64,000 bases of DNA from Armatimonadota bacterium (GCA_016125185.1 WGMG01000001.1:62001-126000), one strand, 5' to 3'. Positions 5,184 to 50,450 are shown, counted from the stretch's first letter. Numbers and translations are program-made. Notes: generated by a model not told the origin, from the letters alone.

Positions 5184-5332
5184 GGGGAGTTGTAGGCCCC
5201 GATTAGTCGGGAGAAGGCAGGTAGCACCATGCCCGGGCAGTGCGGGAGAGGAAGTGACTTGGATCATCGCGCTCCTTCGGGGCTTTCGAAGCTCGTTACC
5301 ACCCAAAGCCCAACGTCGCTTACAATACTCTC

Positions 5333-5953
5333 GTGAGTGAAAACGGCCCGCGGTCGAAGCAAGGCACGCTATTCAAGCAAATCAGGGAGACCGAGTTCGC
5401 CGATATTCCACTCCAAACCTTCATCGACTATGCAGGCTTCAAGCGGGGCATCGAGACATTCCTGAAGATCATCGAGCGAGAGAATCGAACCATCCCGACA
5501 GACTTTGATGACGAATCGACGGCCTTTTGGAACACCAAAACCCGTTACGAGACAGCAAATTTGGAAATGCTCATGTTCGCAATCGGGTCGATGAATACTC
5601 CACGCAGTTTCGAGGTCCTGATGAAGTTCGCAATCGGCGACTATCATCCGTTTGTTCGGTGCGAGGCGGTCTTTGGGCTAACCTTCGACTCTAGGAACTT
5701 CAAGGAGGTTCGGCGTCTGGCCGTTCGGCTGATCCAGTCGCCCCGCCACCAACTGGACATCTACAGCGGGCTTCTGGTCTTCGATCACTTATTCTATCGT
5801 TTCAAGGGACCTAAGGCGGTCGAGTTTCTGGCTCCGTTGCTGGATCATACCAACGGCCATGTTCGCGCTCAAACTGCTTATGTTTTGGGGTATTGGCCAG
5901 AAGGCAAAGTCCGTCTGGCTCAATACCGAGAGGGCTGGGCTAACGGTCAATAA
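5333..5953 (+). CDS. HEAT-repeat-like protein
   Basis: A 206-residue cytosolic protein with a GTG start. A TACAAT box at 5321-5326 ends six bases before the start, which supports this choice. The C-terminal two thirds contain alpha-helical repeats of HEAT/Armadillo type, such as RSFEVLMKFAIGDYHPFVRCEAVFGL and AVEFLAPLLDHTNGHVRAQTAYVLG split over two units. Such repeats normally mediate protein-protein contacts. No catalytic motif is seen. It is a single-gene unit between the membrane operon and the convergent S9 peptidase. Confidence 0.55.
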   Translation: MSENGPRSKQGTLFKQIRETEFADIPLQTFIDYAGFKRGIETFLKIIERENRTIPTDFDDESTAFWNTKTRYETANLEMLMFAIGSMNTPRSFEVLMKFAIGDYHPFVRCEAVFGLTFDSRNFKEVRRLAVRLIQSPRHQLDIYSGLLVFDHLFYRFKGPKAVEFLAPLLDHTNGHVRAQTAYVLGYWPEGKVRLAQYREGWANGQ

Positions 5954-12486: not shown

Positions 12487-15400
12487 TTACCAATGAAGTC
12501 CGCTTGAACTACTAAGAACGAATTCCTTTAATCGGAATATCCTGTTTTTAAAGCGAATCTGTGGGTGCAGATATTTAATGCGGCTATCGTAGACGCTATC
12601 TGCAGACATCTCCCTCAGCCTTGGCAACCGATTCAAGAAGCGAAAGTTCGACAAATTGATTCCGTTTAGTTCCAATGTAATCAGATTTGGAAGAACCGGA
12701 AGACTATCTATCTCCAAGTTGCCACAGTCTATAAGCATGAGATGCTCTAGTTTTCTATAGTTCCTCAAGTGGCTTAAATCGTAGATCGGACAAAAGGATA
12801 AATCAAGAATCTTTACATTTTCGAGTCTGGCCAACGGAGAAATATCTTCTAATGGCAATGATCGAAGGCATAATTCATTCAAATTAGTTAGGTCTCCAAT
12901 CGCATCTATATCGGTTATTTTTGTACCGGATAACGTAATGCACTTTAATTGCTTAAGTGATCTTATCCATTCGATCGAAGAAACATTCGAATCAGATAAG
13001 TCAAGAAATTGGCAATTCGTGAAGCTGGACAGACCCGAATAGTCAAAAAGAGGACAGCCAGCCAAATTTAGTGACTCAAGTAACGGGTAAGACAATAATG
13101 GATCGAGGCTCGTTATGGCTGACGCGATTTTGTCGAGTGAGGAAGGTCTATCACCTCTTGTCAGCTCCTCCACCACCAATGGAATCTCCAATATATTGCG
13201 AAAAACTCCAAATACTAGTAGTCCGACTGCTTTGGCTATTTCATTGATTTCGACTGGCGACTGAGCTGATTCAACATATGGCCTACAGGCCAAAACTGCT
13301 TCTCCGGTGCTGATCCTGGAAAGTGCACGAGCCTTAGCCATTTGCACTATATGTTTTTGAATAGGCTCGTATAAAAGGTGACGAACAGCGCTTGGTCCAA
13401 TTTGCCCCATTATGACTGCCTTTGCCTTTGTGTTAACTGGTAGATATCTGCTTTCGACTTTGGCGACAGCATCTTCAATGTCCACGGGCAATGTTCGACG
13501 GTACAGTTTAGCGAGACGAAGAGCAAGTAGATCGCAAGCCGCCTTTTGGCCCTTCGTATCCATGTTCATCGAAATAAGTGCTCTCAGCACCTCCAGAGCA
13601 AAATCGGACTCCGATCGAGAGGCAACAATAAATGTAAACAATGGTTCCCATCGGTTGATCGGATCCGGCCCGTTCTTGCCCCTGCCGTATAGCAACTGGG
13701 TTAGGAATTCCGGATCGCCAACTTCAGCGATGGGGTGCGCGCCTAAGTAATCTCGGAGCGTATTGTGAACGAACTCAACATCGTCTGCACCAACTGCACG
13801 AAGCAAGTTGCTCCGTTCAATTATGCCCTGCAGTATTCCTTCCGCTTCCTCCTCCGTCCTTCGTCCATACAGTGAGCGAATCGTATGGCTAACCACTTTT
13901 CGAGAACGCACTTCCGTCCGATGCTCAATGAAGTCGAAGGCGATCTTTTCGATAATCTCTCGCCTTTTTTCGACTCTATCCAGGTCTCTGTAAGCCTTTG
14001 GAGCAGGATCGCAGGAACCTAACTGCAGAAAGTCTCGATCCCACAGGAGCATCGTTACGGCACTCTCACAAAGGTCATCGAGAGACGTCGGGAGGTTGCC
14101 GCGATACACTCGGTTGATTGCGCAGAGAAGGGCACAAAGGAGGGGATTTCGAGCAAGTCGAGCTAACTCTGGCTTATTTTGTAGTTCTGCGTGAAGAATC
14201 CCCTTGACGACTTCGAGATTTGCCCGTTCTATTTCGTCCAGCTCTAATTTCCTAGCCACGGCTTCGTGCCACCTATCTAGAAATAAATCTTGAGTCACTG
14301 GAGTTAGCTCGCAAATTTCGAACTCGTCGAACCCCTCAGGAACTTGGTCATCTACCGCCTGAGGGCGCGACGAAATCACGATGATATTTCGACGATCCGA
14401 AGTGTAGTTTCGAAACCAGTCCATGGCTTTCTTCCGCTCAGCGATCGGTAACTCGTCTAGGCCATCAACAAGTAACAAAGCGCGTCCGGAATCGAAGACC
14501 CGCTGGGCCCAGTTGCTGTCAGGTGGCGTGTCGGATAGGATGCGATTGGTAAGCTCCGCTTTGGTAGGAAATGTGCCACTTGAACAATCTCGCAGGCGGA
14601 CAAAGAACGGAACATAACCAGTCCACCAAACGCCTGTGTCTCCCTCCACTTTCGATCTGGCAGTGGCAATCCAGTTAGATATTTGCCCTCCCGCTCCTGG
14701 AGTTTCAGGTCGCCGATTCAGCTGAGACTGGAGGCCGAACCAAGCCAAGAGGGTTGACTTCCCACTGCCCGCCATACCTTTGATGTACTTTCTAGCCGGA
14801 CCTGATTTCGGCAGGCTTAGAACGTTTTGGGCATCGATAACTTCACCATCCGAACCAAGCTGTAGCGTCACGTAAGCGACTGAAAGCTCTAGGCGATTAT
14901 CTTCTGGGGTGACGTTGCGAGTCGGGCCAGGCTTCTGCTCGATGAATAGCTGAACTTCATTGAACTTCTGACAGAAGGCTTGACAGTAGATTTCTTCAAA
15001 TTCGGCGTCGGCACGCGCTTGCTTGCCAAAATTGTAGGCGGTGATTCGCGCTTCGAACTCTTGAGGATCGACCGAGCTCTTGGTTATCTGAAGGAGCCAG
15101 CGAAAGAAGCCAGGGAAACGGTCGACACGGTCAATGATCTGCCTGACGATCTCCGTGAGGAGTATGCGGATGTACGCGAGCTCGGACGACCACTGACTTT
15201 CGTTCATGGCCCCTCGAGCCATTATGACGTCCGCAACTTGCTCCGGATGATCGAGGCCCTGAAGCAGTTCCGCATATGTGAAACCTCGATCGAAACAGTA
15301 TGATACCTCGAGAAGCACCTGGTCGGGAAATTCGTACTCAGACAGGTTATCTGCGGCCGCAGTGAGTATTTCCGTTCGAAGGGAAATCGTTGCTTTGTCC

Positions 15401-15540
15401 TTGACCCAAGCGTCGAGTCGTTCGGCACCAATACCTGATGCTTCCAGTAACCCACCTAGCCGGTCACCCTGAGCCAGTTTGATGATCGCCTTTGTTAGGG
15501 CTAGGCTTAGCTTTGCGGTCCACTTCGGCTGGCTTGACAC
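12487..15540 (-). CDS. NACHT-domain NTPase with C-terminal leucine-rich repeats (bacterial NLR-like)
   Basis: A 1017-residue STAND-type protein. The first ~230 residues are alpha-helical with no assigned motif and are probably the effector or N-terminal helical domain. The NACHT core has a P-loop GMAGSGKST near residue 257, a Walker B LLLVDGLDEL near 357 and a VISSRP sensor. A helical region follows, and from about residue 850 leucine-rich repeats such as LKCITLSGTKITDIDAIGDL occur. Bacterial NACHT proteins include antiphage factors, with the C-terminal repeats as sensor. Composition is clearly more AT-rich than the flanking genes, suggesting transfer. A TAAAAT box sits six bases before the GTG start. 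No partner gene adjoins it. A defence role is an inference. Confidence 0.85.
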   Translation of the reverse strand: MSSQPKWTAKLSLALTKAIIKLAQGDRLGGLLEASGIGAERLDAWVKDKATISLRTEILTAAADNLSEYEFPDQVLLEVSYCFDRGFTYAELLQGLDHPEQVADVIMARGAMNESQWSSELAYIRILLTEIVRQIIDRVDRFPGFFRWLLQITKSSVDPQEFEARITAYNFGKQARADAEFEEIYCQAFCQKFNEVQLFIEQKPGPTRNVTPEDNRLELSVAYVTLQLGSDGEVIDAQNVLSLPKSGPARKYIKGMAGSGKSTLLAWFGLQSQLNRRPETPGAGGQISNWIATARSKVEGDTGVWWTGYVPFFVRLRDCSSGTFPTKAELTNRILSDTPPDSNWAQRVFDSGRALLLVDGLDELPIAERKKAMDWFRNYTSDRRNIIVISSRPQAVDDQVPEGFDEFEICELTPVTQDLFLDRWHEAVARKLELDEIERANLEVVKGILHAELQNKPELARLARNPLLCALLCAINRVYRGNLPTSLDDLCESAVTMLLWDRDFLQLGSCDPAPKAYRDLDRVEKRREIIEKIAFDFIEHRTEVRSRKVVSHTIRSLYGRRTEEEAEGILQGIIERSNLLRAVGADDVEFVHNTLRDYLGAHPIAEVGDPEFLTQLLYGRGKNGPDPINRWEPLFTFIVASRSESDFALEVLRALISMNMDTKGQKAACDLLALRLAKLYRRTLPVDIEDAVAKVESRYLPVNTKAKAVIMGQIGPSAVRHLLYEPIQKHIVQMAKARALSRISTGEAVLACRPYVESAQSPVEINEIAKAVGLLVFGVFRNILEIPLVVEELTRGDRPSSLDKIASAITSLDPLLSYPLLESLNLAGCPLFDYSGLSSFTNCQFLDLSDSNVSSIEWIRSLKQLKCITLSGTKITDIDAIGDLTNLNELCLRSLPLEDISPLARLENVKILDLSFCPIYDLSHLRNYRKLEHLMLIDCGNLEIDSLPVLPNLITLELNGINLSNFRFLNRLPRLREMSADSVYDSRIKYLHPQIRFKNRIFRLKEFVLSSSSGLHW

Positions 15541-15546
15541 GATGGC

Positions 15547-15552
15547 ATTTTA
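15547..15552 (-). promoter_or_regulatory. -10 element TAAAAT of the NACHT-LRR gene
   Basis: TAAAAT on the minus strand with exactly six bases to the GTG start at 15540, predicting a leaderless mRNA. The same spacing is seen at 18771, 20052, 20862 and 23575. Confidence 0.6.
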
Positions 15553-18128: not shown

Positions 18129-18166
18129 ATGGGAAAGGCTCGCTTGCGCAAGGTAAAAATGATTTC

Positions 18167-18712
18167 GTGTCGTACAACGATTGGCTCAAGATGATTCGAC
18201 ACGCGGGAGCCGATCCGCGTCAGGCCGATCCAAACTGGCTGAAGAGCCAATTTCAAGCCGGGGCGCTACCCGTCCTCATCGCCAATGACATCATCGCCGG
18301 GCGCTTTCCGCGCCGAAAATCGGTGGTGCCGCGCCAAACCCGACGACCCGTTTCTGCTGTGGGGAAGCTGGGTATCGGGTGCGCGACCATCTTCCTGCTC
18401 CTTGGTCTCTGGTTCATGCTTACGACCGGTCTGCGGATGATCGCACAGCCGCGCTTGGCTGCCTACTGGACCTACAACGGCTCCAAATACTCGATTGTCA
18501 AAATCACGAATGAGTCGGGGCAGAAGCTGACCGGCCTGCAGGTCTGGTTCGATACGCCTTCGGATGACCGGGTCTTTGGCGATCTCGTCACCAAAACGCT
18601 CGCGCCTGGCCAGTCCACCAAGGCCTCCTTCGACTACGAGGACATTCCGGCCTACACGACACTCGATGGCCGCTGTAGCTCGGGCGGGGTATTCATCTTC
18701 ACGACGAACTAG
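18167..18712 (+). CDS. SYNDWL-family single-TM protein, member 1
   Basis: A 181-residue product, GTG start, with TAAAAAT (18154-18160) six bases upstream. Three parts are visible: a helical head (MSYNDWLKMIRHAGADPRQA with conserved ADPNWLKSQF, residues 1-48), one membrane helix (about 63-88) and a C-terminal beta-type domain beginning LAAYWTYNGSKYSIVKITN and ending in CSSGGVFIFTTN. The same three-part plan recurs in genes at 18783, 20064 and (head only) 20874. The head lies on the N-terminal side, probably cytoplasmic, and the beta domain outside. I know of no described family with this head. Confidence 0.7.
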   Translation: MSYNDWLKMIRHAGADPRQADPNWLKSQFQAGALPVLIANDIIAGRFPRRKSVVPRQTRRPVSAVGKLGIGCATIFLLLGLWFMLTTGLRMIAQPRLAAYWTYNGSKYSIVKITNESGQKLTGLQVWFDTPSDDRVFGDLVTKTLAPGQSTKASFDYEDIPAYTTLDGRCSSGGVFIFTTN

Positions 18713-18770
18713 CCGAAGAGTCGGTGGATCGTTCGTTCCAAACTATCTTTCTAGTCCAGCGTCGCGGTGC

Positions 18771-18776
18771 TAAAAT
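18771..18776 (+). promoter_or_regulatory. -10 element TAAAAT of the 18783 gene
   Basis: TAAAAT with exactly six bases to the GTG start. It belongs to a set of near-identical leaderless promoters in the paralogue array (also 20052-20057, 20862-20867 and 23575-23580). Confidence 0.6.
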
Positions 18777-18782
18777 TGCCGC

Positions 18783-19421
18783 GTGTCGTACAACGACTGG
18801 CTTCAAGCGATCCGAAGGGGAGGCGTCGATCCGCGAGTGGCAGATCAGGCGTGGCTTCGGAGTCAGTTCGGGTCGGGGACGCCGCCGTCCGTGGTCATCA
18901 ACGCGATGGTCACCGACCGGTTTCCGAGGGCTCCGTTGAGTCCGATGGTCTTCACGCCACCGCAGGCGCCCGGTTCTCGGCCCTCGCCAAACCCACCGCC
19001 GGTGGGTGGCTACATCCCCCGCCGTTATCCCCCGTCCGGCATCGAGCGGTGGTTCACCCGCATCGGGATCGTCCTCGCCATTTTGGGCGCCATCTTCCTT
19101 GGACCCATCGTTTGGAAAGTCATCACGTGCCCTCACTTTTCGTATCGGTGGATGTCAACTGGGAACGGCTACTGCACGGCTCGCGTGACCAACAAATCCA
19201 AGAAGCGGATAACGGGCCTGACGGTCTGGCATACATCCCACGAGTACACCGATAGAGAAGGCTTTGTGGAGCATAAGTACTACGGAGACCTGGATGCGAC
19301 CTCGCTCGATCCCGGCGAGTCGACCACGGCCACCTTCCACTTCACCAAACCGGATGACTTTACGGACGTCAATGGCTCCTACAGCTCGGGTGATATCTTA
19401 ATTCTTCCCGAGGACAACTAA
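18783..19421 (+). CDS. SYNDWL-family single-TM protein, member 2
   Basis: A 212-residue protein with the head MSYNDWLQAIRRGGVDPRVA and ADQAWLRSQF, a Pro-rich linker, a membrane helix near residues 92-114 and a C-terminal domain with SYRWMSTGNGYCTARVTNKS and a terminal YSSGDILILPEDN. The C-terminal domain aligns with member 1 (YNGSKYSIVKITN) and member 3 (YNGSEYALLKIKN). The stop TAA (19419-19421) overlaps the stop of a convergent minus-strand frame. It has its own leaderless promoter, so the copies are transcribed individually. Confidence 0.7.
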   Translation: MSYNDWLQAIRRGGVDPRVADQAWLRSQFGSGTPPSVVINAMVTDRFPRAPLSPMVFTPPQAPGSRPSPNPPPVGGYIPRRYPPSGIERWFTRIGIVLAILGAIFLGPIVWKVITCPHFSYRWMSTGNGYCTARVTNKSKKRITGLTVWHTSHEYTDREGFVEHKYYGDLDATSLDPGESTTATFHFTKPDDFTDVNGSYSSGDILILPEDN

Positions 19422-19794
19422 GCCGTATAGGCGCCCAGTTTGAAGGCGTGGCCTTCCAGCGCGGCGGTGATGATCTCCTGCTTCCAACCCGGCGGGAACG
19501 CGCCCTTAGCTCGCGATCCGCCGCCGCGGTAACCACATAGTCGGCGTGCCAGGGACACGAAAAGGTGATCGTGTACAGCCCGGTGTCACCCAAGATCATC
19601 GGGTTGGCGCTACGCGAATAGATTGCGACTTTGAACCCGTGCGTGCTGGAAAAAGCGTTGCCGTATGTGACGGTCGTGTTCGCAGTCTCGATGGCGGCAG
19701 GCGGGCTAAAGCTCGTCACCAGCGAGTAGCTCGCCGAAAAGTCTCCGCGCCAGACATAGTTCGCCGCGCCGAGGGGGTCGTTCTTAAGGATCAT
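19418..19794 (-). pseudogene. Decayed small gene, possibly phage-tail-like
   Basis: From the ATG at 19794 a frame encodes MILKNDPLGAANYVWRGDF... to HADYVVTAAAD near 19520. Convincing coding character then continues in a different frame as KGAFPPGWKQEIITAALEG and stops at TAG 19420-19418, which overlaps the convergent gene's stop. The total length is not a multiple of three, so one or two bases have been gained or lost near 19508-19540. The HGFKVAIYS and HAFKLGAYTA patterns resemble short phage tail proteins, but I cannot name a family. In the unshifted frame the ORF ends at 19369. Confidence 0.45.
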
Positions 19795-19992
19795 TTAGTC
19801 TCCACACCCGCATGGCCGTTTGACTGGCTGGCCCTGGGCGCGCTTTTGACCTTCGGTCACAATGCGGCGGATGGCAGGAAAGATGCGGGTGCGAATCTCG
19901 GTCATCGTGACCTCGTCGCAACCTTCGAGGGTGATGACGCAGTTGCGCCCCTCGCCGACCTTGAGCCGGTATTCGTCGGGTGGGTTCGTCAT
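19795..19992 (-). CDS. Small hypothetical protein (65 aa)
   Basis: The product begins MTNPPDEYRLKVGEGRNCVI and ends with a Cys-rich tail (KRPCGCGD). It is hydrophilic, has no membrane segment and sits immediately upstream (zero-base spacing) of the decayed 19794 gene, so they formed one unit. Its cysteine tail might bind a metal. No family is recognised. It may be a relic of the same minus-strand element as the genes at 16284-18128. Confidence 0.4.
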   Translation of the reverse strand: MTNPPDEYRLKVGEGRNCVITLEGCDEVTMTEIRTRIFPAIRRIVTEGQKRAQGQPVKRPCGCGD

Positions 19993-20051
19993 TGGAAGGC
20001 TTCAGTGGGGCAGGATTCAGAAAGATGAGTCACGACGGACAGGCGCGATGT

Positions 20052-20057
20052 TAAAAT
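20052..20057 (+). promoter_or_regulatory. -10 element TAAAAT of the 20064 gene
   Basis: TAAAAT with six bases to the GTG start, as in the neighbouring paralogues. Confidence 0.6.
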
Positions 20058-20063
20058 AGTCCA

Positions 20064-20813
20064 GTGTCGTACAACGACTGGCTAAAGCTGATCAAAAACA
20101 CGGGCGCCGATCCTCGCCTGGCCGATCAGGCTTGGCTTCAGAGTCAGTTCCGGTCCGGCACGTCTCCGGCGATGGTGGCAAACGCCATCAAAATCAATCA
20201 GTTTCCAAGGCCTCAGGCACCCATGATGCAGGTGCCGATCCAGCAACCAATCTACCAACAACCGGTCCAATCGTCGATGCAGCAACCGGTCCAGCAACCG
20301 ATTTACCAACAGCCGAATTATCAGCAACCGATGCCGCCGCAGGGGTTCCAGCAGCCCATGGCTCAGCCTGGCTACCAGCAGATTCCGTACCCGGGACCCG
20401 GATACGCCTATCGGCCCGGAATGTCGACGGGCACCAAGGTGCTTCTCGCCATCGTCGGAGTCATCGGAATCTTCTTTCTTGCGATCCTTGGGGCAGGGCT
20501 GAAGGGACTGGGTCAACCGCACCTTTCGGCACGGTGGGTGTACAACGGTTCGGAGTACGCGCTCCTCAAAATCAAGAACCGGTCGAGCTCCACCATCAGC
20601 GATATCCGGCTATGGCTGGAAACCGACATCGCCACCACCGATCACGGCATCGAAACCGTCTCGCATGGCAAGGTTTACGGCCAAGATTTCTCGAGAACGC
20701 TCCGTCCCGATCAGACTCAAACCGTCACGTTTTGGCTTGGCAATATCCCCGATTGGGCGTCCGTCCAGGGCACCTGTAGCTCGGGCGATCTGTACATCAC
20801 CAACGATTTTTAG
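20064..20813 (+). CDS. SYNDWL-family single-TM protein with Gln/Pro-rich linker, member 3
   Basis: A 249-residue product. The head (MSYNDWLKLIKNTGADPRLA, ADQAWLQSQF) is followed by a long low-complexity linker built from QQP(I/V)YQQP repeats (residues ~55-120), a membrane helix (VLLAIVGVIGIFFLAILGAG) and a C-terminal domain starting ARWVYNGSEYALLKIKN and ending CSSGDLYITNDF. The linker is the same kind of Gln/Pro/Tyr-rich tract found in the zinc-ribbon proteins encoded at 23587 and 43692, which links the two head types into one architectural group. Function is unknown. Confidence 0.7.
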   Translation: MSYNDWLKLIKNTGADPRLADQAWLQSQFRSGTSPAMVANAIKINQFPRPQAPMMQVPIQQPIYQQPVQSSMQQPVQQPIYQQPNYQQPMPPQGFQQPMAQPGYQQIPYPGPGYAYRPGMSTGTKVLLAIVGVIGIFFLAILGAGLKGLGQPHLSARWVYNGSEYALLKIKNRSSSTISDIRLWLETDIATTDHGIETVSHGKVYGQDFSRTLRPDQTQTVTFWLGNIPDWASVQGTCSSGDLYITNDF

Positions 20814-20861
20814 GTTAGCCACCTTCAGAACCAAAGTACCAAAACGAAGTAAGCGCCATGC

Positions 20862-20867
20862 TAAAAT
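20862..20867 (+). promoter_or_regulatory. -10 element TAAAAT of the 20874 gene
   Basis: TAAAAT with six bases to the ATG start. Confidence 0.6.
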
Positions 20868-20873
20868 TCCCGC

Positions 20874-21413
20874 ATGGATTTCGCTCGGTGGCAACAAATG
20901 GTACGCCAGGCGGGTGGGGATACAAGGATGGCGGATCAGAACTGGCTCTACAGTCAGTACCAGATGCAACAAGCCCCCATCGTCGTGGCGCGCATGATCC
21001 AGGCGGGAGCCTTCGTCCCCGCCCAGCCGACTCAACGCCGGATGCCAACGCCGGTCATGCCGTCCATTCAACTCGGCGACCCGCGCGCGATGCGATTTCC
21101 CACCGACTACACCGAGTGGCGATGGACCCTGTACCTTACGTCGGTCGGCTTCCTGCTCCTCTTCTTCTACGCCGCGTTCTCCCTGGCAACGGTTAACGAT
21201 CTCGCCCAGCGATTCGCGTCGATGAGTACTTCACCCATCGAATACTTCGTTAAGAAGGCCTGGTGGGCGGTCCTTCTGGTTATCGGTTTGTGCATCTTTA
21301 TTAGGCGATTATTCCTCTTTTCGCCGTTCCCGTCGATCCACTCTCGCACATACCTAACGTGGATGGCGGTGCTTTGCGCGCTTGTCGCCCTCGCCGTGCA
21401 GTTCACGGTTTAG
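20874..21413 (+). CDS. SYNDWL-like head fused to a multi-TM region, member 4
   Basis: A 179-residue product. The head is divergent but alignable (MDFARWQQMVRQAGGDTRMA, ADQNWLYSQY versus ADQAWLQSQF). Instead of one helix and a beta domain it has about three membrane helices (near residues 84-106, 130-148 and 158-176) and no C-terminal soluble domain. This shows that the head is a mobile module combined with different membrane parts. It is the last plus-strand gene before the zinc-ribbon members on the minus strand. Confidence 0.65.
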   Translation: MDFARWQQMVRQAGGDTRMADQNWLYSQYQMQQAPIVVARMIQAGAFVPAQPTQRRMPTPVMPSIQLGDPRAMRFPTDYTEWRWTLYLTSVGFLLLFFYAAFSLATVNDLAQRFASMSTSPIEYFVKKAWWAVLLVIGLCIFIRRLFLFSPFPSIHSRTYLTWMAVLCALVALAVQFTV

Positions 21414-21527
21414 ACCAGCCAGTTATCGCCCAAGCCGACCAGAAACTTCAGTTTGCCGAATGTCTCCGACGTCGGGTCAGGTCGAAGCCATTCGGAAGGG
21501 AATTGGGAAGAGGTGGCGACGAACGCC

Positions 21528-22220
21528 CTATTTCATCTCGGGGAACACGGTCGGGTCCCACTTGTTAAATATGTGCACGTCTTTTCCGTTGCCTATGCTG
21601 AAGTCGATCCCATAAAGTTCGTAGTCGTACCGCATGGTGATGGTCCACTTATCGCCAGGGTAGATTCGAATTACGGGGCTGTCATAGAAGCGATGATAAG
21701 AGAGGCGAGGATCTGGTCCAGGGCGACCTTGCTGACTGTCCAAAGTTAACTTGGGTGTTACTGTGCACGTGGCTGGATTTCCAGTCGAAGTCTCGTGAAA
21801 TATCCTATCCCCGAAGAGGTCGATCTGCATCACATGGCCAGTCGTGTTGGTGAGCTCCCCGACAATCTCGTCGCCGTTTCGTCGATTCCAGCTTACAGTG
21901 AGGGGCGGTACGTCTCGCTGGACTGGTCGGGACGCGGATTGCCCATCTCGCTGATCGCCGGGCCGAAATCCAGGGCGAGTTACGAAATAGATTGCAAGCC
22001 CAGCAAGTCCGAGCAGGAGAATCATGCCGATGATCCAACCGAAGTTGGATCGTCGAGGACGCGGCACTGGCGTACCAACTAAAATAAGGCTCCCCTGGGC
22101 GTATCCAGGGTTCGAAGGTTGAATGCTGAAAATGTGTCCGCACGAACCACAGGCCGTGGCATTCAAAGGGCTCGTCATCCTGCACCTTGGACATACGATA
22201 TGCGGCACATTCGGGTCCAT
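21528..22220 (-). CDS. Zinc-ribbon single-TM protein (array member)
   Basis: The 230-residue product opens with a four-cysteine ribbon (CPRCRM...CGSCGHIF, residues 10-30), then a membrane helix (near 60-82) and a C-terminal beta-type domain containing YPGDKWTITMRYDYELYGI. Short 'CxxC...CxxCG' heads of this kind are typical zinc ribbons. The plan (small N-terminal module, linker, one helix, outer beta domain) repeats that of the SYNDWL proteins. A relic of the PGDKW motif also occurs in the pseudogene at 24508, so that gene belonged to this group. Confidence 0.65.
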   Translation of the reverse strand: MDPNVPHIVCPRCRMTSPLNATACGSCGHIFSIQPSNPGYAQGSLILVGTPVPRPRRSNFGWIIGMILLLGLAGLAIYFVTRPGFRPGDQRDGQSASRPVQRDVPPLTVSWNRRNGDEIVGELTNTTGHVMQIDLFGDRIFHETSTGNPATCTVTPKLTLDSQQGRPGPDPRLSYHRFYDSPVIRIYPGDKWTITMRYDYELYGIDFSIGNGKDVHIFNKWDPTVFPEMK

Positions 22221-22259
22221 TTGGATATCTTACGTCGCTCTATCCTCTGGACCTCAATC

Positions 22260-23183
22260 CTATGGCCAAGCGGGAAAGCTGAAGTTTGGATCGTATTTGT
22301 TCTTCAGGTCGACATCGAACACCGCATGGACTTCGTCTGACCCAGTTGCCGTGAGTGTGATTGGACCATCAGCCCCAATAGAGTAGGCCGTCTCGCCCAT
22401 CAGAGAAATATCCATTTCGCCGTTAGAATCGCTTTCTATTGTGGGTCCGAGATCGCTTCGACGATTCTCCTCTGGCGCGTAGTTCTGCACCCGTCGAAGA
22501 CGCCATTTGTATGTATGACCGTCGTCAGACTGACTGTCGATGGTTAAAAGAACGGATCGCTTGGAGTAATTGAGGAGGACACCTTGCTGTTGGCCGCCGC
22601 CGAGACGGTGAGTCCACACGACTTGGATATCACCATCCTGAATTTGCCCCTTCGATGCTTCGCCAACGGGAGCCACACCGCGGTCTTGTTCGGTCGGGCT
22701 CGGGCCGCTTTGCGTCGGGTCACCCTGAGTTGCCTGATTGTCCGACGAACTGTAGGTCTTGGGCGGAGGAATCGCCTGCGCCTGCTGGGGCTGAGGCTGC
22801 TCGTCGCTTCGCTCGTTGGAGCTCGAGCTCGGCACCACAGATTTGAAAATGAACGCGCCAACGATGACCACCGCCAGGGCCATGATCGCCAGGTAAGGCT
22901 TGCGACTCACGGGCGCCTGCGCTGTCTGTACCGGACCGGTCTGCATTGGGCCAGCCATCGGGTTTGACCCGCTAAACATCTGAGTCTGATTCGGAGTCGG
23001 ACTACCGCCACCGAACATTTGCGTTTGGTTCGGGGTGGGCGAAATCGGTGCCGCGCCGAATGCCTGCGTCTGATGAATCGGCGTCCCGACGAAGGACATT
23101 CCGCACTTCGGACACGCCGCCGAGCCAAGTACAACCGGGGTTTTACACCTCGGACAAGGCGATGTCGGCGAACCAGGATTCAC
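22260..23183 (-). CDS. Zinc-ribbon single-TM protein with Gln/Pro-rich linkers; source of the 24508 duplicate
   Basis: The 307-residue product (GTG start) begins MNPGSPTSPCPRCKTPVVLG with a second CPKCG, then repeated PTPNQTQMF(G/S)G linker units, a membrane helix (LAIMALAVVIVGAFIF), a long Gln/Pro/Ser tract and a C-terminal beta domain. The start is fixed by TACAAT (23191-23196 on the minus strand) with a seven-base gap, and by the duplicate at 24508 whose similarity begins at that promoter. The frame is open for another 100 codons upstream, but those codons have no counterpart in the duplicate. Confidence 0.65.
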   Translation of the reverse strand: MNPGSPTSPCPRCKTPVVLGSAACPKCGMSFVGTPIHQTQAFGAAPISPTPNQTQMFGGGSPTPNQTQMFSGSNPMAGPMQTGPVQTAQAPVSRKPYLAIMALAVVIVGAFIFKSVVPSSSSNERSDEQPQPQQAQAIPPPKTYSSSDNQATQGDPTQSGPSPTEQDRGVAPVGEASKGQIQDGDIQVVWTHRLGGGQQQGVLLNYSKRSVLLTIDSQSDDGHTYKWRLRRVQNYAPEENRRSDLGPTIESDSNGEMDISLMGETAYSIGADGPITLTATGSDEVHAVFDVDLKNKYDPNFSFPAWP

Positions 23184-23196
23184 GATGGTTATTGTA

Positions 23197-23574
23197 CGAC
23201 AACAAAGGGCCTCAACCTTCGGTCTGCTGTCAACTCGAATGAAGGCTTTAGCTTCAATCCTTAAGTTTTGGCGGGCGAGACGCACACCTTCCAAGTTCAG
23301 CAAATTCACGTCGTAAACGTGCCCTGAGGTGTCTTTGCACTGGGACTCCTCCTTCGGTGGGTACTTTGCTATGCCTATGAAATAGGCGAGATAAGTCTGG
23401 CTAACGAAAACGCAGATGAATCCTGCGCACTTGTATAGTTGAGTTGCCAGAACGGAAGCATCTGGACCTGCCAGAGCCCTCATGGTCGTGGATGGTCGAC
23501 CTCTTTCCGGACGAGCCCGAAGAAAAGGACGAAGATAATGGTTTGGGTGCCTTGATGATGCTCGATTCGCATCG
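23197..23574. other. Intergenic region between divergent array genes
   Basis: 378 bases between the promoters of the 23183 (minus) and 23587 (plus) genes. It contains a short GAAGGCTTTAGCTTCA dyad and a minus-strand frame open up to 23483 that could extend the 23183 gene with a hydrophobic segment. I see no other gene. Confidence 0.4.
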
Positions 23575-23580
23575 TAAAAT
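23575..23580 (+). promoter_or_regulatory. -10 element TAAAAT of the 23587 gene
   Basis: TAAAAT with six bases to the ATG start. Confidence 0.6.
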
Positions 23581-23586
23581 GGACGA

Positions 23587-24321
23587 ATGATCCCGTCCGC
23601 GCCCTATAAGGAGTGCCCGCGATGCCGGATGAAATGCACCTTGGACGCCCAAGTCTGTGGGACCTGCGGGCATTTGTTCAGCACGAAGTTCGTGCCGAAT
23701 GCGGCTCAGCCGATGGCGGGGCAACCCCAGATGGGCCAAACCCAGATGAATCAGCCGTACCAGGCGCCGATGCAGCCTGGACCGGCGTACGGATACGGCC
23801 GCGAGGCGTGGCATCAGCGGCCGAGTACGCGGTCGCTGATCACGTGGCTGGTGGTGATTTTGGCGCTGTCCGGTTTGGGCTACCTTGGCTACAAGCTGGT
23901 GGCGGTGAACAACGGCCTGGTGATGACGTGGTCAGGCTCAGCCGATAAGGGTGATTCAACGGTGGGTTGGCTGGAAAACAACTCGTCACACCCCTTCGCT
24001 GTGAGCCTCAGCAGTGAGATCGACGTTCCGCCGGAGAAGCGGTCTCCGCTGGTTCCCGGCCCAACGATGGGAGCCTACATCTATGTTCGGTTTCATGGCG
24101 ACGACCAAGACCCGGGCTTGGGCGGTTGGGCCAACGTGAAGCTCCAGCCAGGCGAGGCCGCGCACGTGAAGATCTCTGCCGGTGGTCGGCTGATCATTAA
24201 GGCGATCGACGACTTTGGCCAGAAGTCGCAGATCGACTTTAAGCAGCGATGGGAGAAGGGTTATGCGCCGGCGGATGACGGCGGCGGTGGCGGCGGCCAG
24301 TCGGATAGAAATGGGTGGTGA
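23587..24321 (+). CDS. Zinc-ribbon single-TM protein with Met/Gln/Pro-rich linker (array member)
   Basis: A 244-residue product beginning MIPSAPYKECPRCRMKCTLD with a second CGTCG (ribbon, residues 10-29). A Met/Gln/Pro linker (MGQTQMNQPYQAPMQPG), a membrane helix (LITWLVVILALSGLGYLGY) and a C-terminal beta domain (VMTWSGSADKGDSTVGWLEN...) follow. The tail is Gly-rich. The ribbon head is nearly the same as that of the 43692 product (KECPRCRMRSDVSVQVCASCG). The gene is preceded by a leaderless-type promoter. Confidence 0.65.
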   Translation: MIPSAPYKECPRCRMKCTLDAQVCGTCGHLFSTKFVPNAAQPMAGQPQMGQTQMNQPYQAPMQPGPAYGYGREAWHQRPSTRSLITWLVVILALSGLGYLGYKLVAVNNGLVMTWSGSADKGDSTVGWLENNSSHPFAVSLSSEIDVPPEKRSPLVPGPTMGAYIYVRFHGDDQDPGLGGWANVKLQPGEAAHVKISAGGRLIIKAIDDFGQKSQIDFKQRWEKGYAPADDGGGGGGQSDRNGW

Positions 24322-24324
24322 GCT

Positions 24325-24475
24325 TTTAGCTTCTAGTTGGCAGTTGGGAGTTGGGAGAGGGCACAGAGCAGTGTGCAAGTGCAGAGTGCAGAGCGCCCTG
24401 TGAAACGCACTTCTCAAAGAGGCTGAACCTCTCTTGCGGCTTGAAGCTTGTGGCTTGAGGCTCAAGGCTCATGGC
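24325..24475. repeat. Degenerate 7-bp period repeat array
   Basis: Two blocks with strict seven-base periodicity: TGGCAGT, TGGGAGT, TGGGAGA near 24340, and CTTGCGG, CTTGAAG, CTTGTGG, CTTGAGG near 24437-24465. Units drift in sequence but not in length. The array lies between the 23587 gene and the duplicated pseudogene. Confidence 0.65.
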
Positions 24476-24507
24476 CCTTTGCCCTTCGTTGTCGTACAAT
24501 ATCCACC

Positions 24508-24920
24508 GTGAATCCTGGTTCGCCGATTCATCAGACCCAGGCTTTTGGCGCGGCACCGATTTCGCCCACCCCGAACCAAACGCAAATGTTCGGTGGCGGT
24601 AGTCCGACTCCGAATCAGACGCAGATGTTTAGCGGGGGGAACCCGATGGCCGGCCAAATGCAGACCGGTCCGGCGCAGACAGCGCAGGCACCCGCGAATC
24701 GCAAGCCTTACCTGGCGATCATGGCCTTGGCGGTGGTCATCATTGGCGCGTTCATTTTCAAATCCGTCGTTCCCAGTTCGAAGACTTTGTCGGACGATGC
24801 CAGGACCGAGTCTCTTCGTCGGCACCCGGCGATAAGTGGCGGATTTATTGCGATTTCGACTTTGCGCTGACGGGATGGCTCCACGAACCGAACGGCGAGC
24901 GGACTCGTGCTCAATCATGA
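24508..24920 (+). pseudogene. Truncated inverted duplicate of the 22260-23183 zinc-ribbon gene
   Basis: Similarity to the minus-strand gene begins upstream of the TACAAT box (24495-24500) and continues through MNPGSP, the PTPNQTQMFGGG linker and the membrane helix. The zinc-ribbon segment is missing: the copy jumps from NPGSP to IHQTQAF. In the intact gene the deleted stretch is bounded by two copies of CGCCGA, of which one remains here, so a slippage or recombination deletion is likely. After the helix the frame is lost. It reads to a stop at 24870, while a remnant of the C-terminal domain (PGDKWRIYCDFDFAL) lies in another frame up to 24920. Expression may persist because the promoter is intact. 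Confidence 0.75.
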
Positions 24921-25067: not shown

Positions 25068-27017
25068 TTAGAACTTGACCGAGAACTGCGCGCCGTAGAA
25101 GGAGCCCTTCTGCGCGTTTCCGATGCCGTTCACCGTGGTGATGATGTTGTTGAGGTCGCCGTTCTGCCAGAACAGGTTGAACATCGTGTGCTCGCCCATG
25201 TCGTAGCCAAGGTTGACCGTCGTGAACTTGCTTTCAGCGCCATCGGCGATGCCCTGGAAGCCGCTCTTGAACTTCGTATCTTCGTACGAAGCCATCATGC
25301 CCCACTTCTGGGTCAGTTCGTAGCCGAAGCCCGCCTTCCACATCTTGTAGTCGCCGGTACCGGTGATCGCGTCACCCTTCTCGTACGAACCGTGGATGTG
25401 CAGCTTGTCCGACAGCTTGGCCATACCATAGGCGGAGAGCGCCTTGGTGTTGGTCAGGTTGCGGAAGACCGACACGCGGCCCCAGTCACCCGGAGCGACG
25501 TAGTTGGTTTCGACGTTTCGGTAGCCGAGCTTCAGGCCGTAGCTGTCCGAGTGCGTGCTCAGTGCAACGTTCCATCGACCGTTGGCGGTATCCACCAGCG
25601 TGTCGAGGTTCTGCGTATCCGAGCCGGAGCCCGAAGACGTCAGATCGTTGTTGTTTGCGGCGATGCCGTAAGCGACCGACTTGCCCGCGCCGCCTTCCAG
25701 CATGAAGCTGCCCGCATTGAAGTGCAGATCAGCGCCGTAGACGTTGTATCGGGTGATGCCAGACTGCTGAACGATGCCCTGCGGCTGAGCCGTGCCATCC
25801 TGCAGGAAGTTGACGTTTACGCCAAGCGAACCGTCGAAGTCCACGTAGGAAGCGGTGACGCCGCCCTTGTCCTCGGCAAACTTGAAGTCATAGGATCCAC
25901 CCATGACTCGCTGAACGCCAAGCGTGGTGAGCTGCATCGGCTGGACGTTGAATCCGCCGGTGGTCGTCGTGTTGTTCAGGGTTCCCCAGAACAGCTTGCC
26001 GCCCTGACCGAAGGCCAGAACGCCGCCATCCATTCGCCACGTGTGGTCATCCCACCGGCTGTTCTTGTAGAACGAGGTGGTGTCCGGTCGGCTGAGGATG
26101 TAGTTGCCAAGCTTCAGGCCCTGTCGGCCAACGGAGAGGTTCCACTGCGGGAGCGTCGCCGTCAGTTCGTGCAGGTACACCGAAGTGCCGCTGGACGAGA
26201 TGACAGAACCAGCGCCCGTCGGGTTGTACGACTGCACGCCGAAGCCCGTACCGGTGGACGAGTTGAGCATATTCGTCGCCACGACTTCCGCCTTGTACGG
26301 AATCTTGGAGGACGGATCGGTGATCTTCACACCGAACTCGTGCATCGTGATGAGGTTGTCGAAGCCACCGCCCGTGCCGAAGCTCTGCAGGTATTGGCCG
26401 TCTTGGTTCACCACCGCAGTCGAGCCGGTAGCCTGCGAAGCCATCGCCATGAAGAAGTTGGCATCGCCGGTGATCTGGATGCCGCCGCCAGCCTGCTCGA
26501 GCTTGGAAACTCGCGCGGCGAGGTCGGAAATGTTCTTCTTCATCGACTCGACGTCGACGCCTAGCGACTTCAGTTCGTTGGAGTAAGCCGAGGCCATCTT
26601 CTTGAGCTGAGCCAAGTCGCTGCTCCACTCCTTCATGCCGCCAACCTGCTTCTGCAGATCGGCCAGGCCGGTCTTGATGTCCGAAAGGTCAACGGTTTTG
26701 CCGCTGCCGCCGTCTCCGACGGAGTTGATCTTGGCTTCCAGCGCCTTGAGATTCTTCTCAACGTCGCTATTGAAACCGACGAGCTTGGCGTAAACCGCGT
26801 AAACGATCGACGCGACCTCGTAACGGGTCATGGTGCGGGTGCCGTTGAAGTTCCCGTCGCTGTCGCCGTGGATCAATCCCTCAAGCTTCAGCTTGTTCAC
26901 GCTGTCGGCCGCCCAATGTGTATCCTTTACATCCGGAAAGCCATCTTGGGCGAAGGCAGGAACAGCCATACCGAGCCCAAGGACTACCGAAAGAGCGTAC
27001 TTATAAGTTCGCTTCAT
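25068..27017 (-). CDS. SLH-domain outer-membrane porin (OmpM/Slp-like)
   Basis: The 649 residues comprise a signal peptide (to AFAQ, residue ~24), one SLH domain (FPDVKDTHWAADSVNKLKLEG, then DGNFNGTRTMTRYEVASIVY), a coiled coil (residues ~85-175) and a long beta-barrel region ending in the aromatic-rich GAQFSVKF, a BAM-type C-terminal signal. In diderm Terrabacteria and Deinococcus-Thermus such SLH-coiled-coil-barrel proteins tether the outer membrane to pyruvylated or polyamine-modified cell wall. This is probably a major envelope protein. It is monocistronic, with a strong terminator. Confidence 0.88.
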   Translation of the reverse strand: MKRTYKYALSVVLGLGMAVPAFAQDGFPDVKDTHWAADSVNKLKLEGLIHGDSDGNFNGTRTMTRYEVASIVYAVYAKLVGFNSDVEKNLKALEAKINSVGDGGSGKTVDLSDIKTGLADLQKQVGGMKEWSSDLAQLKKMASAYSNELKSLGVDVESMKKNISDLAARVSKLEQAGGGIQITGDANFFMAMASQATGSTAVVNQDGQYLQSFGTGGGFDNLITMHEFGVKITDPSSKIPYKAEVVATNMLNSSTGTGFGVQSYNPTGAGSVISSSGTSVYLHELTATLPQWNLSVGRQGLKLGNYILSRPDTTSFYKNSRWDDHTWRMDGGVLAFGQGGKLFWGTLNNTTTTGGFNVQPMQLTTLGVQRVMGGSYDFKFAEDKGGVTASYVDFDGSLGVNVNFLQDGTAQPQGIVQQSGITRYNVYGADLHFNAGSFMLEGGAGKSVAYGIAANNNDLTSSGSGSDTQNLDTLVDTANGRWNVALSTHSDSYGLKLGYRNVETNYVAPGDWGRVSVFRNLTNTKALSAYGMAKLSDKLHIHGSYEKGDAITGTGDYKMWKAGFGYELTQKWGMMASYEDTKFKSGFQGIADGAESKFTTVNLGYDMGEHTMFNLFWQNGDLNNIITTVNGIGNAQKGSFYGAQFSVKF

Positions 27018-43691: not shown

Positions 43692-44258
43692 GTGGGGCCG
43701 CAGTTTCCGACCAAAGAGTGTCCGCGATGTCGGATGAGGAGTGATGTGTCCGTCCAAGTATGCGCGTCGTGCGGACTGATGTTTGCGCCTTCGACGATTC
43801 CCCAACCTCAGAACATCCAGGTTCCGAGCCAACCCAATCCGACGCAAGTCGTCTATCCCCAGCAAAACTACCAACAGCCTAACTACCACCAACAGAACTA
43901 CGATCAGCCGGGTTACGAGCCACAAAACTATGGGCAGCAGCCGGGCTACGGACAGCAGCCCTACGGCTACAGCCAATACCCGCGTCCGGGTTATGGCTAC
44001 CACCCAGGCATGATCTATAAGCCAGGGCAAAGTGTCGGCTTAGCGGCCCTATTTTCGATTCTGTTGACCGGCGGCGGGCAGATGTACAACGGCCAAGTGG
44101 CGAAAGGGTTAACCATCCTTTTCGGCGGGATATTTATCTCGTGCCTCACGGGTGGCTACATGGCCTTGCCGGTCATCATCTTCGCTCTCGTGGACGCCAT
44201 TGTTGTGGCCCAAAGGCTGTACCGCGGCGAGTGCATCGACGCCTGGAAATTCTTCTAA
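43692..44258 (+). CDS. Zinc-ribbon / Gln-Tyr-rich linker / TM2-like membrane protein
   Basis: The 188-residue product starts (GTG) MGPQFPTKECPRCRMRSDVS with a second CASCG, then a Tyr/Gln/Pro/Asn-rich linker with NYQQPNYHQQNYDQPGY repeats and a C-terminal pair of helices. LLTGGGQMYNGQVAKGL marks the helices as a TM2-type domain (G.G.hY.G....G). The ribbon head is nearly the same as in the 23587 product, 20 kb away. So the same head and linker are joined to different membrane domains. Confidence 0.7.
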   Translation: MGPQFPTKECPRCRMRSDVSVQVCASCGLMFAPSTIPQPQNIQVPSQPNPTQVVYPQQNYQQPNYHQQNYDQPGYEPQNYGQQPGYGQQPYGYSQYPRPGYGYHPGMIYKPGQSVGLAALFSILLTGGGQMYNGQVAKGLTILFGGIFISCLTGGYMALPVIIFALVDAIVVAQRLYRGECIDAWKFF

Positions 44259-46730: not shown

Positions 46731-48044
46731 TTAGACCGCGCCACCGTCCGAATCCGCCTTAGGAAGTTCAATGATACCTCGCAAAGCCTTAAATATTTGC
46801 ACGCAAAGCTCGTCGTCGTCCGCCAACGTCTGCATTTCGTCGGGAGTCAGGCGAGCCTCCAAAATCGCGTCCGTCGCCAGGATCAAAGCGTCTGAACCGT
46901 CCAACTTCTGCTGACTCTGCCACAGCCGCGCCTTCACCAAGTAGCTGTTGGCCAAACGCACAAACTGCCGCGGATTGTAGTTCGCTCCCGAGGCCAAAGG
47001 CTCGTAAATCGACGCTAGGGTAAACAGCTCCGGCGAGAATTCGCCCGCCTTAGCCGTGTTCGCCACCAGTTGGCCCCCAGGCAAATCGCTCTCGATAAAC
47101 AGGCTCCCGCGAACCTGCTCCTCAGTTTCCACCAGCGTCCGATTTCCGAGTGCAGGCTTCCAAAGCTCGTGCCGCGCCGCCAGCTTCACCACCTGCTCGC
47201 GCGCGTACTTCACAAACACCGCCCGGTGCGACGGCACCCGCACCGGCAGGTTCACGATCTTCTCCAGATACGACTCGCCCCACTGCCGCTCGGGGTCCAG
47301 TTTGAATTTATCCGTGTAAACGTACTGCAGGTACTTCGTCACCACGTTGTCCGCCAGCGCCAGCACAAACACAAACCCGCGCTGGTTCAAAATCAGCTTG
47401 ATCGACTCCAGCAGATGCACCGCCTTCTCTGGGTCGCACCGGTCCAGGTCGTCGATGAACACGACGATCTTGAACTGCCCATTCTTCGAAACTGTGGTTA
47501 GAGTCTCGTAAGCATCAGCATAGGCCAACTCGAACGGGAGAACCAGCTCGGCGTCGACCAACTCCTGGTAGGCATCGATGAGCCTGGCAAAGTCCATCTC
47601 GATGCCGGTCTTCAGCACTTTCGAGACCCCAAACTCCCCCTTGATCTTCATCGACTTGGCGATCGCCACGATCGCCGCCTTGATCTGACCTAAAATCTCG
47701 GTTTTAGTCTGCGCCTTCGAGTCGCTGTTCCGAATGGCGTTGACCATCGCCGCGATCAGCGCAAACAACGGCTCCGGCTCCCGCTCGTGTTGCCAGGCGT
47801 TGAACCAAACCGTGACGGTGGAATTCTGCCCGTACCCATCCACCATCTCCCGCGCCAGGTTCAAAAGCGACGTCTTGCCCGTCCCCCACGGCCCAAACAC
47901 CCCGATCGTAAACGGCCCCTCGTTGCCCACCGCCGCCCCGGCCACCGTGTCCGCCACATCCTGCAGACGCAACCCGTCGCCCAGCCGATTCGGACACGGA
48001 TTGTCCTGCATCAGGATCAATGGCCGCAAATTGTACGTCCCCAC
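46731..48044 (-). CDS. KAP-family P-loop NTPase
   Basis: The 437-residue product has Walker A FGPWGTGKTS near residue 50, the KAP signature VWFNAWQHEREPEP after it, and Walker B VVFIDDLDRCDPEKAV near 196, which is diagnostic. Many KAP proteins carry two membrane helices between Walker A and B; here that segment is a charged, mostly soluble stretch (KSMKIKGEFGVSKVLK), so this version is probably cytosolic. KAP NTPases occur in phage-defence and membrane-signalling contexts. A TAGGAT box (48051-48056) six bases before the GTG suggests a leaderless transcript for the two-gene operon. Confidence 0.88.
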   Translation of the reverse strand: MGTYNLRPLILMQDNPCPNRLGDGLRLQDVADTVAGAAVGNEGPFTIGVFGPWGTGKTSLLNLAREMVDGYGQNSTVTVWFNAWQHEREPEPLFALIAAMVNAIRNSDSKAQTKTEILGQIKAAIVAIAKSMKIKGEFGVSKVLKTGIEMDFARLIDAYQELVDAELVLPFELAYADAYETLTTVSKNGQFKIVVFIDDLDRCDPEKAVHLLESIKLILNQRGFVFVLALADNVVTKYLQYVYTDKFKLDPERQWGESYLEKIVNLPVRVPSHRAVFVKYAREQVVKLAARHELWKPALGNRTLVETEEQVRGSLFIESDLPGGQLVANTAKAGEFSPELFTLASIYEPLASGANYNPRQFVRLANSYLVKARLWQSQQKLDGSDALILATDAILEARLTPDEMQTLADDDELCVQIFKALRGIIELPKADSDGGAV

Positions 48045-48050
48045 ACCGCC

Positions 48051-48056
48051 ATCCTA
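48051..48056 (-). promoter_or_regulatory. -10 element TAGGAT of the KAP-LRR operon
   Basis: TAGGAT on the minus strand with six bases to the GTG at 48044. The divergent pentapeptide gene starts 126 bases away at 48170. Confidence 0.45.
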
Positions 48057-49599: not shown

Positions 49600-50450
49600 C
49601 TTGGCTCGCCTCTTCGCTTCGACCCACTCGCCTTTCTTCCTGAAGGCGCGATGCGCCGCAAGCCCCAAGTTTCCTCTCCTCCCAGGAGAGGACGTTGCCG
49701 CGACGATAGGAGCTCGGCAACAGGTGAGGTAGAGATTGGCCCCGACCCACGCCTCAATCTCGACAAGTCAGCCCTGAAGGGGCGATCCAAGTTAGCCCAG
49801 TCCGCCAGGGCTGGGTACCGAGACACCGAGAAAAGCGGTCTGAAGGACCGCGCCAAGCCAGCCCTCTCCCGCATCACCCACGCTGCGCCGCAAGCCCAAA
49901 TTCCTCTCCTCCCAGAGCCTGCGTACAGCAACAGAAAGCCCTATCTCGGAGAAGGAGGGCCAACCAATGCCAGTCGTGGCACTGGTCATATGCTTGGGCA
50001 CAAGACGCAACCATCTCCCCTCCGAAGATCGGAGGGGTGGCGCGAAGCGACGGGGTGGATGATGACAGACACACGCATCTTGCTCCTTTGCGGAGAAAGG
50101 AAGGTCTGCGAATTGGGCACCACAAGAGGGCGCAATTCGTGCGGGGATGAAAAAGGGCTTCGCCCAAGGAGTCCCGAGCATCGGGACGACCCCCAATTCT
50201 AATTGCGAAGAGAGCCAGCCGCATACCCAAACGGCATGGCAGAGCGGAAAAGCCCGGGACTGCTACCTCAGGGCCGAGGCTTACGGCAAACACACGAATC
50301 AGTAATCAGAGGTTCTGAGGTTCAAAAGTCTTCAGTAGGCAGGATGACTTCCCAAGGAAGAAACATTGCCCCACCCACGTCTCGCCCATATAGAAGTCTG
50401 CTTTGTTGGCAGCCGACCAAAACAAGGAATGACGGGTGAAGCAGTGGCTG
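49600..50450. repeat. Intergenic repeat mosaic
   Basis: About 850 bases without a supported gene, assembled from several dispersed elements: a 36-base element at 49781-49816 identical to 55030-55065; an AGCGGTC-TGAA-GGACCGC hairpin (49834-49851) also at 55085-55102; CGCCGCAAGCCC...CCTCTCCTCCC twice (near 49650 and 49890); and a 49-base element at 50015-50063 recurring at 50965-51013. Confidence 0.65.

Follow-up and report, generated by a model that had tools for sequence, protein, structure and literature searches.

The part of four neighbouring genes of an Armatimonadota bacterium that we call the SYNDWL head can safely be stated to be an undescribed three-helix domain, restricted to one bacterial family in searches of 291 genomes of the phylum. 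This cysteine-free domain of about 50 aa occupies, in the proteins that carry it, the position held by a zinc ribbon in those encoded by neighbouring genes. The novelty lies in the head itself, the overall layout of these proteins being already familiar. Outer-domain proteins of the FxLYD, DUF4352 and OB-fold types constitute a wide class whose function is mostly obscure, and the family described here provides a testable case for the role of small inner heads in envelope proteins with one transmembrane (TM) helix. If the heads do have one common partner, they would form a new trans-envelope module.

The genes belong to an array spanning positions 18167-24870 of the window, i.e. the whole stretch of 64,000 nucleotides that was analysed. 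It includes six intact genes for one-TM proteins, one gene for a protein with three TM segments and one broken copy. Eight genes had been described there by a sequence-only reading, and the ORFs are indeed present at 18167, 18783, 20064 and 20874 (+), 21528 and 22260 (-), 23587 (+) and about 24448 (+, fragment). Codon-position GC bias backs the coding status of the intact ones, their third-position GC being 0.59-0.77, in the same direction as in the neighbouring genes. Gene A (18167..18712, +) encodes a SYNDWL head (aa 1-50), a short linker, a TM helix (about 68-92) and an Ig-like tail (about 95-181). Genes B (18783..19421, +; TM about 96-114) and C (20064..20813, +; TM about 126-144) encode the same succession of head, linker, TM helix and tail, the three tails being homologous. 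The 74-aa linker of C is rich in Gln, Pro and Met (57%); such richness had been attributed to the linkers in general, but it is strong only in C, the linkers of the array ranging from 19 to 57%. Two small unassigned ORFs lie on the minus strand between B and C (19369-20060, -). Gene D (20874..21413, +) encodes a diverged head (MDFARWQQMV...) and three TM segments, without an outer domain. Zinc-ribbon heads are encoded by genes E (21528..22220, -; CPRC-x10-CGSC), F (22260..23183, -; CPRC-x10-CPKC) and G (23587..24321, +; CPRC-x10-CGTC), each followed by a linker, a TM helix and a C-terminal region of its own. The broken copy, fragment H, is located at 24508..24870 (+).

The heads of A, B and C are pairwise about 57-61% identical, and these three genes, which have both head and tail in common, are paralogues. 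Four SYNDWL-type heads had been counted in the window; this stands for A to C, whereas the head of D, although homologous to the other three (shuffle Z 14-23), departs from the literal SYNDWL sequence. Pairwise dN is 0.27-0.42 for the heads versus 0.60-0.80 for the tails, indicating that the heads are more constrained. No significant match to the head was found in Pfam, NCBIfam or PDB sequences, in agreement with the initial impression that it was undescribed. Two candidate relatives were treated as chance matches: DUF4287, which was matched by two of the 17 members with an E of 0.023 at best (15 bits, the cut-off being 27), and, among PDB sequences, DDX3X (an 18-residue FRSGxSP-type stretch, E 0.28).

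Stepwise profile searches (E <= 0.001) of the 291 genomes retrieved 32 head matches in 16 of them, all from Fimbriimonadaceae, the family to which the bacterium of the window belongs, and distributed among six genera. Lineage specificity, which had been proposed from the window, is thus supported at the scale of the phylum. Seven copies are found in this genome, four of them within the window. In all 28 copies that were parsed outside the window, the head occupies the N-terminus or lies close to it and precedes a TM segment, so that A-D and these 28 copies conform to one profile-defined family. In a head tree, which is weak since it rests on about 50 positions, A-D group with another copy from their own genome, and three tandem copies from genome G022 group together with one copy from genome G130. 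Since A-D and the tandem G022 copies fall in separate groups, expansion of the head probably occurred more than once. On contig 15 of G022 (L105), three consecutive head genes, each with a TM bundle, form a tandem array of their own, in a genus other than that of the window.

An AF2 model of protein A, built from six sequences, predicts three helices in the head (3-12, 22-30 and 35-44; pLDDT 88-96 over residues 1-50), helices 2 and 3 being joined by a short G-x-S/T-P turn. The head is followed in the model by a disordered linker, a TM helix (74-92) and a beta-sandwich tail, whose pLDDT is 72-78 for residues 111-160 and drops to about 50 at its end. Foldseek with this model placed the archaellum stator protein FlaG first (E 2e-3), the matches being filled by the tail. 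The soluble domains of FlaG/FlaF resemble it by a beta sandwich preceded by a single TM helix, but identity with FlaG is 16% and its VIA-align Z of 6.6 is equalled by many unrelated Ig-like domains, so this may be no more than a likeness of fold. The outer region of E was modelled as all beta with a pLDDT of 52, with FlaG again first by Foldseek (E 0.05). A common C-terminal fold had been envisaged for the array; the tails of A-C do constitute one family, but the model of the E tail is too poor to set such a fold for the rest.

The tails of A-C are clearly related by shuffle tests (Z 20-28). By the same test, the outer regions of E, F and G do not resemble one another significantly (Z 1.3-3.4), nor do they resemble the A-C tails. 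The strong scores of the E-G tails with their own profile were discarded as a sign of homology, since they arise by construction and pairwise tests show none. Hence, the initial attribution of a distinct outer beta domain to every protein was only partly right: it applies to the A-C family, whereas the E, F and G tails lack significant similarity and D has no outer domain. Comparison of profiles for the A-C tails, the E-G tails and FxLYD, with three sequences per profile, did not back a relationship (probabilities of 1-3%), and PDB sequence searches with the tail profiles returned nothing significant.

Combination of the head with varied membrane and outer parts, first noticed in the window, extends across the 16 genomes. 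Bundles of 2-4 TM segments follow the head in many copies. In others, it precedes an FxLYD domain above the curated cut-off (NF038353; E about 1e-12; L007, L010 and L013), a tRNA_anti-like OB fold (PF12869; two genera, E 5e-12) or DUF4352 (PF11611; two species, E 2e-15 and 1e-14), the latter two being absent from the array genes of the window. An unnamed C-terminal domain, seen by eye, is common to L014 and L058. The A-C tails look similar to FxLYD in their strand pattern, but none of them matches NF038353 above the cut-off. A lipoprotein-like protein from another genus (L079:1450-2115, -) bridges the two: its C-terminus reaches 19 bits against the A-C tail profile, where shuffled sequences gave 6 at best, and, weakly, 9 bits against an FxLYD-type profile. 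This may link the A-C tails, weakly, to FxLYD-type domains.

In E, F, G and a further gene of the window (43692..44258, +), the ribbon is N-terminal and retains all four cysteines, arranged as two CxxC knuckles with some 10 residues between them. These heads remain under the Pfam gathering cut-off, the best score being 22.5 bits vs 29 (UPF0547, gene G). The 43692 protein combines a ribbon like those of E and G with a long Gln/Pro linker and a hydrophobic C-terminus that looks TM2-like by eye only. A TM2 domain had been assigned to it, but Pfam TM2 gave no match up to E 5, and DUF5683 matched below its cut-off (E 0.02). Fragment H derives from F by inverted duplication, with 261 nt at 92% and 46 nt at 93% identity. 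The two blocks join at CGCCGA, a 6-bp repeat present twice in F, 87 nt apart, and an in-frame deletion of 87 nt between the two copies removed the ribbon from H. The outer region of H was also lost.

Every array gene, fragment H included, is preceded by a -10-like box, of the form TANNNT or, for A, TAAAAAT, located 6-7 nt upstream of the start codon. The distance is 6 nt for A (TAAAAAT, 18154..18160, +), for B, C, D and G (TAAAAT; 18771..18776, 20052..20057, 20862..20867 and 23575..23580, all +) and for E (TAAGAT, 22227..22232, -); it is 7 nt for F (TACAAT, 23191..23196, -) and H (TACAAT, 24495..24500, +). With heuristic gene calls, a box was found for six of the seven intact array genes vs seven of 49 other genes of the window (Fisher p 3e-4), and a stricter box occurs at 0.34% of NTG codons in general. 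Most head copies of the genus have a box in an identical or almost identical position. The position of the box also argues for the starts of F and H. Gene F, where conservation in copy H points the same way, most likely begins at GTG 23183, which gives a revised protein of 307 aa rather than 407; the start of H is most likely GTG 24508. The array boxes resemble a promoter element of Deinococcus-Thermus, where leaderless mRNAs are driven by an ORF-adjacent -10 box (PMC12340547), which suggests that the array genes could be separate leaderless transcripts, one per gene, rather than an operon. Further genes of the window have a TACAAT, TAAAAT or TAGGAT box 6 nt before their start (5258-5953, 12490-15552 and 46734-48056), and boxes placed in this way next to the ORF may be widespread in the genus.

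The explanation that we tentatively prefer, at slightly less than even chances, is that bitopic envelope proteins expanded here at the level of the species, the SYNDWL head being a putative cytosolic docking module. Each protein would consist of an N-terminal cytosolic head, a flexible linker, one TM helix and a periplasmic domain, with the three-helix head replacing, in the same position, the zinc ribbon of the neighbouring genes. Through the head, the protein would dock to a partner in the cytosol or inner membrane, and envelope ligands or partners would be bound by the outer part, which is exchangeable (Ig-like, FxLYD, DUF4352, OB fold or TM bundle). A docking or localisation module is proposed because the domain at the inner end is constant while the outer end varies. 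The stronger constraint on heads than on tails also speaks for this explanation. What the sequences show directly is head homology, the N-terminal position, the TM segment after it, the varied C-terminal parts, restriction to one family of the phylum, tandem duplication and the -10-like boxes; the orientation, the docking role, binding by the outer part and the leaderless transcripts are inferred. Nevertheless, copies with a TM bundle alone suit a sensing role poorly.

The head is likely to face the cytosol. In protein A, seven basic residues precede the TM helix and two come after it, and the cysteine knuckles of the ribbons are compatible with a reducing cytosol. Against this orientation, the charge bias of the other proteins is slight or nil: C and F show little of it, and E has none or the opposite one. 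The orientation is therefore likely rather than certain.

Bacterial envelope proteins that consist of a small inner head, a linker, one TM helix and an FxLYD, DUF4352 or OB outer domain are a known kind, which elsewhere is often headed by zinc ribbons. From its partners, TM bundles included, and its restriction to one family, the SYNDWL head can be viewed as a lineage-specific head on this known kind. GltJ (NF033761), a gliding-motility protein with an inner ribbon and a TM helix, has a similar layout. Identity with GltJ was rejected: the match reached 17 bits vs a cut-off of 450 and involved the linker only, which points to composition. TcaA (NF053815), described as a zinc-ribbon domain protein (PMC10611510), resembles the array proteins by its small inner N-terminal head, TM helix and outer domain, and its ribbon has counterparts in E-G and the 43692 protein, whereas the head encoded by the SYNDWL genes is helical and lacks cysteines. 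The TcaA model matched none of the array proteins, its sole match being a weak one to the ribbon of L018 (E 0.22).

SYNDWL and ribbon genes had been taken as one family, a claim that is not supported: their heads are unrelated in all tests run and their outer regions have no demonstrated homology. They could form one functional system, to which only adjacency, common layout and common promoter placement point. A real but somewhat less probable alternative to the docking explanation is that two independent expansions, of SYNDWL and of ribbon genes, lie side by side at a breakpoint for small-gene duplication, with a common layout but no common partner or pathway. Besides the unrelated heads and dissimilar outer regions, the genomic setting is in favour of it. 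To the right of the array lies an SLH-domain protein with a coiled coil and a barrel-like C-terminal part (25071-27017, -; SLH E 4e-8), which is syntenic, together with seryl-tRNA synthetase, in two sister species. There, a second SLH/barrel protein follows on the side where the array would be expected, and to judge from these two sisters the presence of the array at this site is therefore peculiar to the species. This OmpM-like protein is paired with its second copy in the sisters, not here. In the 19-kb regions of the sisters, no match was obtained for any of the window genes tested that lie to the left of the array. Furthermore, the other head copies and ribbon genes of this genome lie apart from the array, and fragment H is a sign of local rearrangement. 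The common layout and the near-identical placement of the boxes in all array genes argue against two separate expansions.

A stronger version of the docking explanation, which we consider unlikely, would make the head a new docking domain tying varied outer or membrane domains to one cytosolic or membrane partner common to Fimbriimonadaceae, as a lineage-specific platform for trans-envelope signalling or anchoring of which the ribbon proteins would be interchangeable members. Less probable still, the head could be the inner domain of a transmembrane regulator, anti-sigma-like or helix-turn-helix-like, that retains or releases a transcription factor or DNA upon binding of an outer ligand. A small helical inner domain, one TM helix and an outer domain is the layout of anti-sigma factors, and the short turn between helices 2 and 3 would suit such a role, but no match to anti-sigma, FecR-type or HTH families was obtained among the 17 heads tested, although a distant homology may have been missed, and many head copies bear a TM bundle alone. 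That the head merely aids membrane insertion or assembly of its own protein, as a targeting or oligomerisation tag without signalling or docking, is very improbable: it is always N-terminal with TM segments next, even before bare TM bundles, but most membrane proteins have no need for such a module and its restriction to 16 of 291 genomes disfavours a general insertion role.

A defence role was also considered for the array and rejected, PADLOC giving one weak match, to a linker, and no other for these genes. Outside the array, a gene at 12493-15549 (-) encodes a 1019-aa protein with NACHT (PF05729, E 1.6e-9) and leucine-rich-repeat (PF12799, E 2.8e-13) domains; its start is preceded, at 6 nt, by a TAAAAT box, and it has no PADLOC match. 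Some NLR-like proteins with such an architecture are involved in defence. Finally, the window harbors an Acido-Lenti-1 RNA (RF01687) at 49770-49815 (-), with a score of 40.8 bits, over the gathering score.
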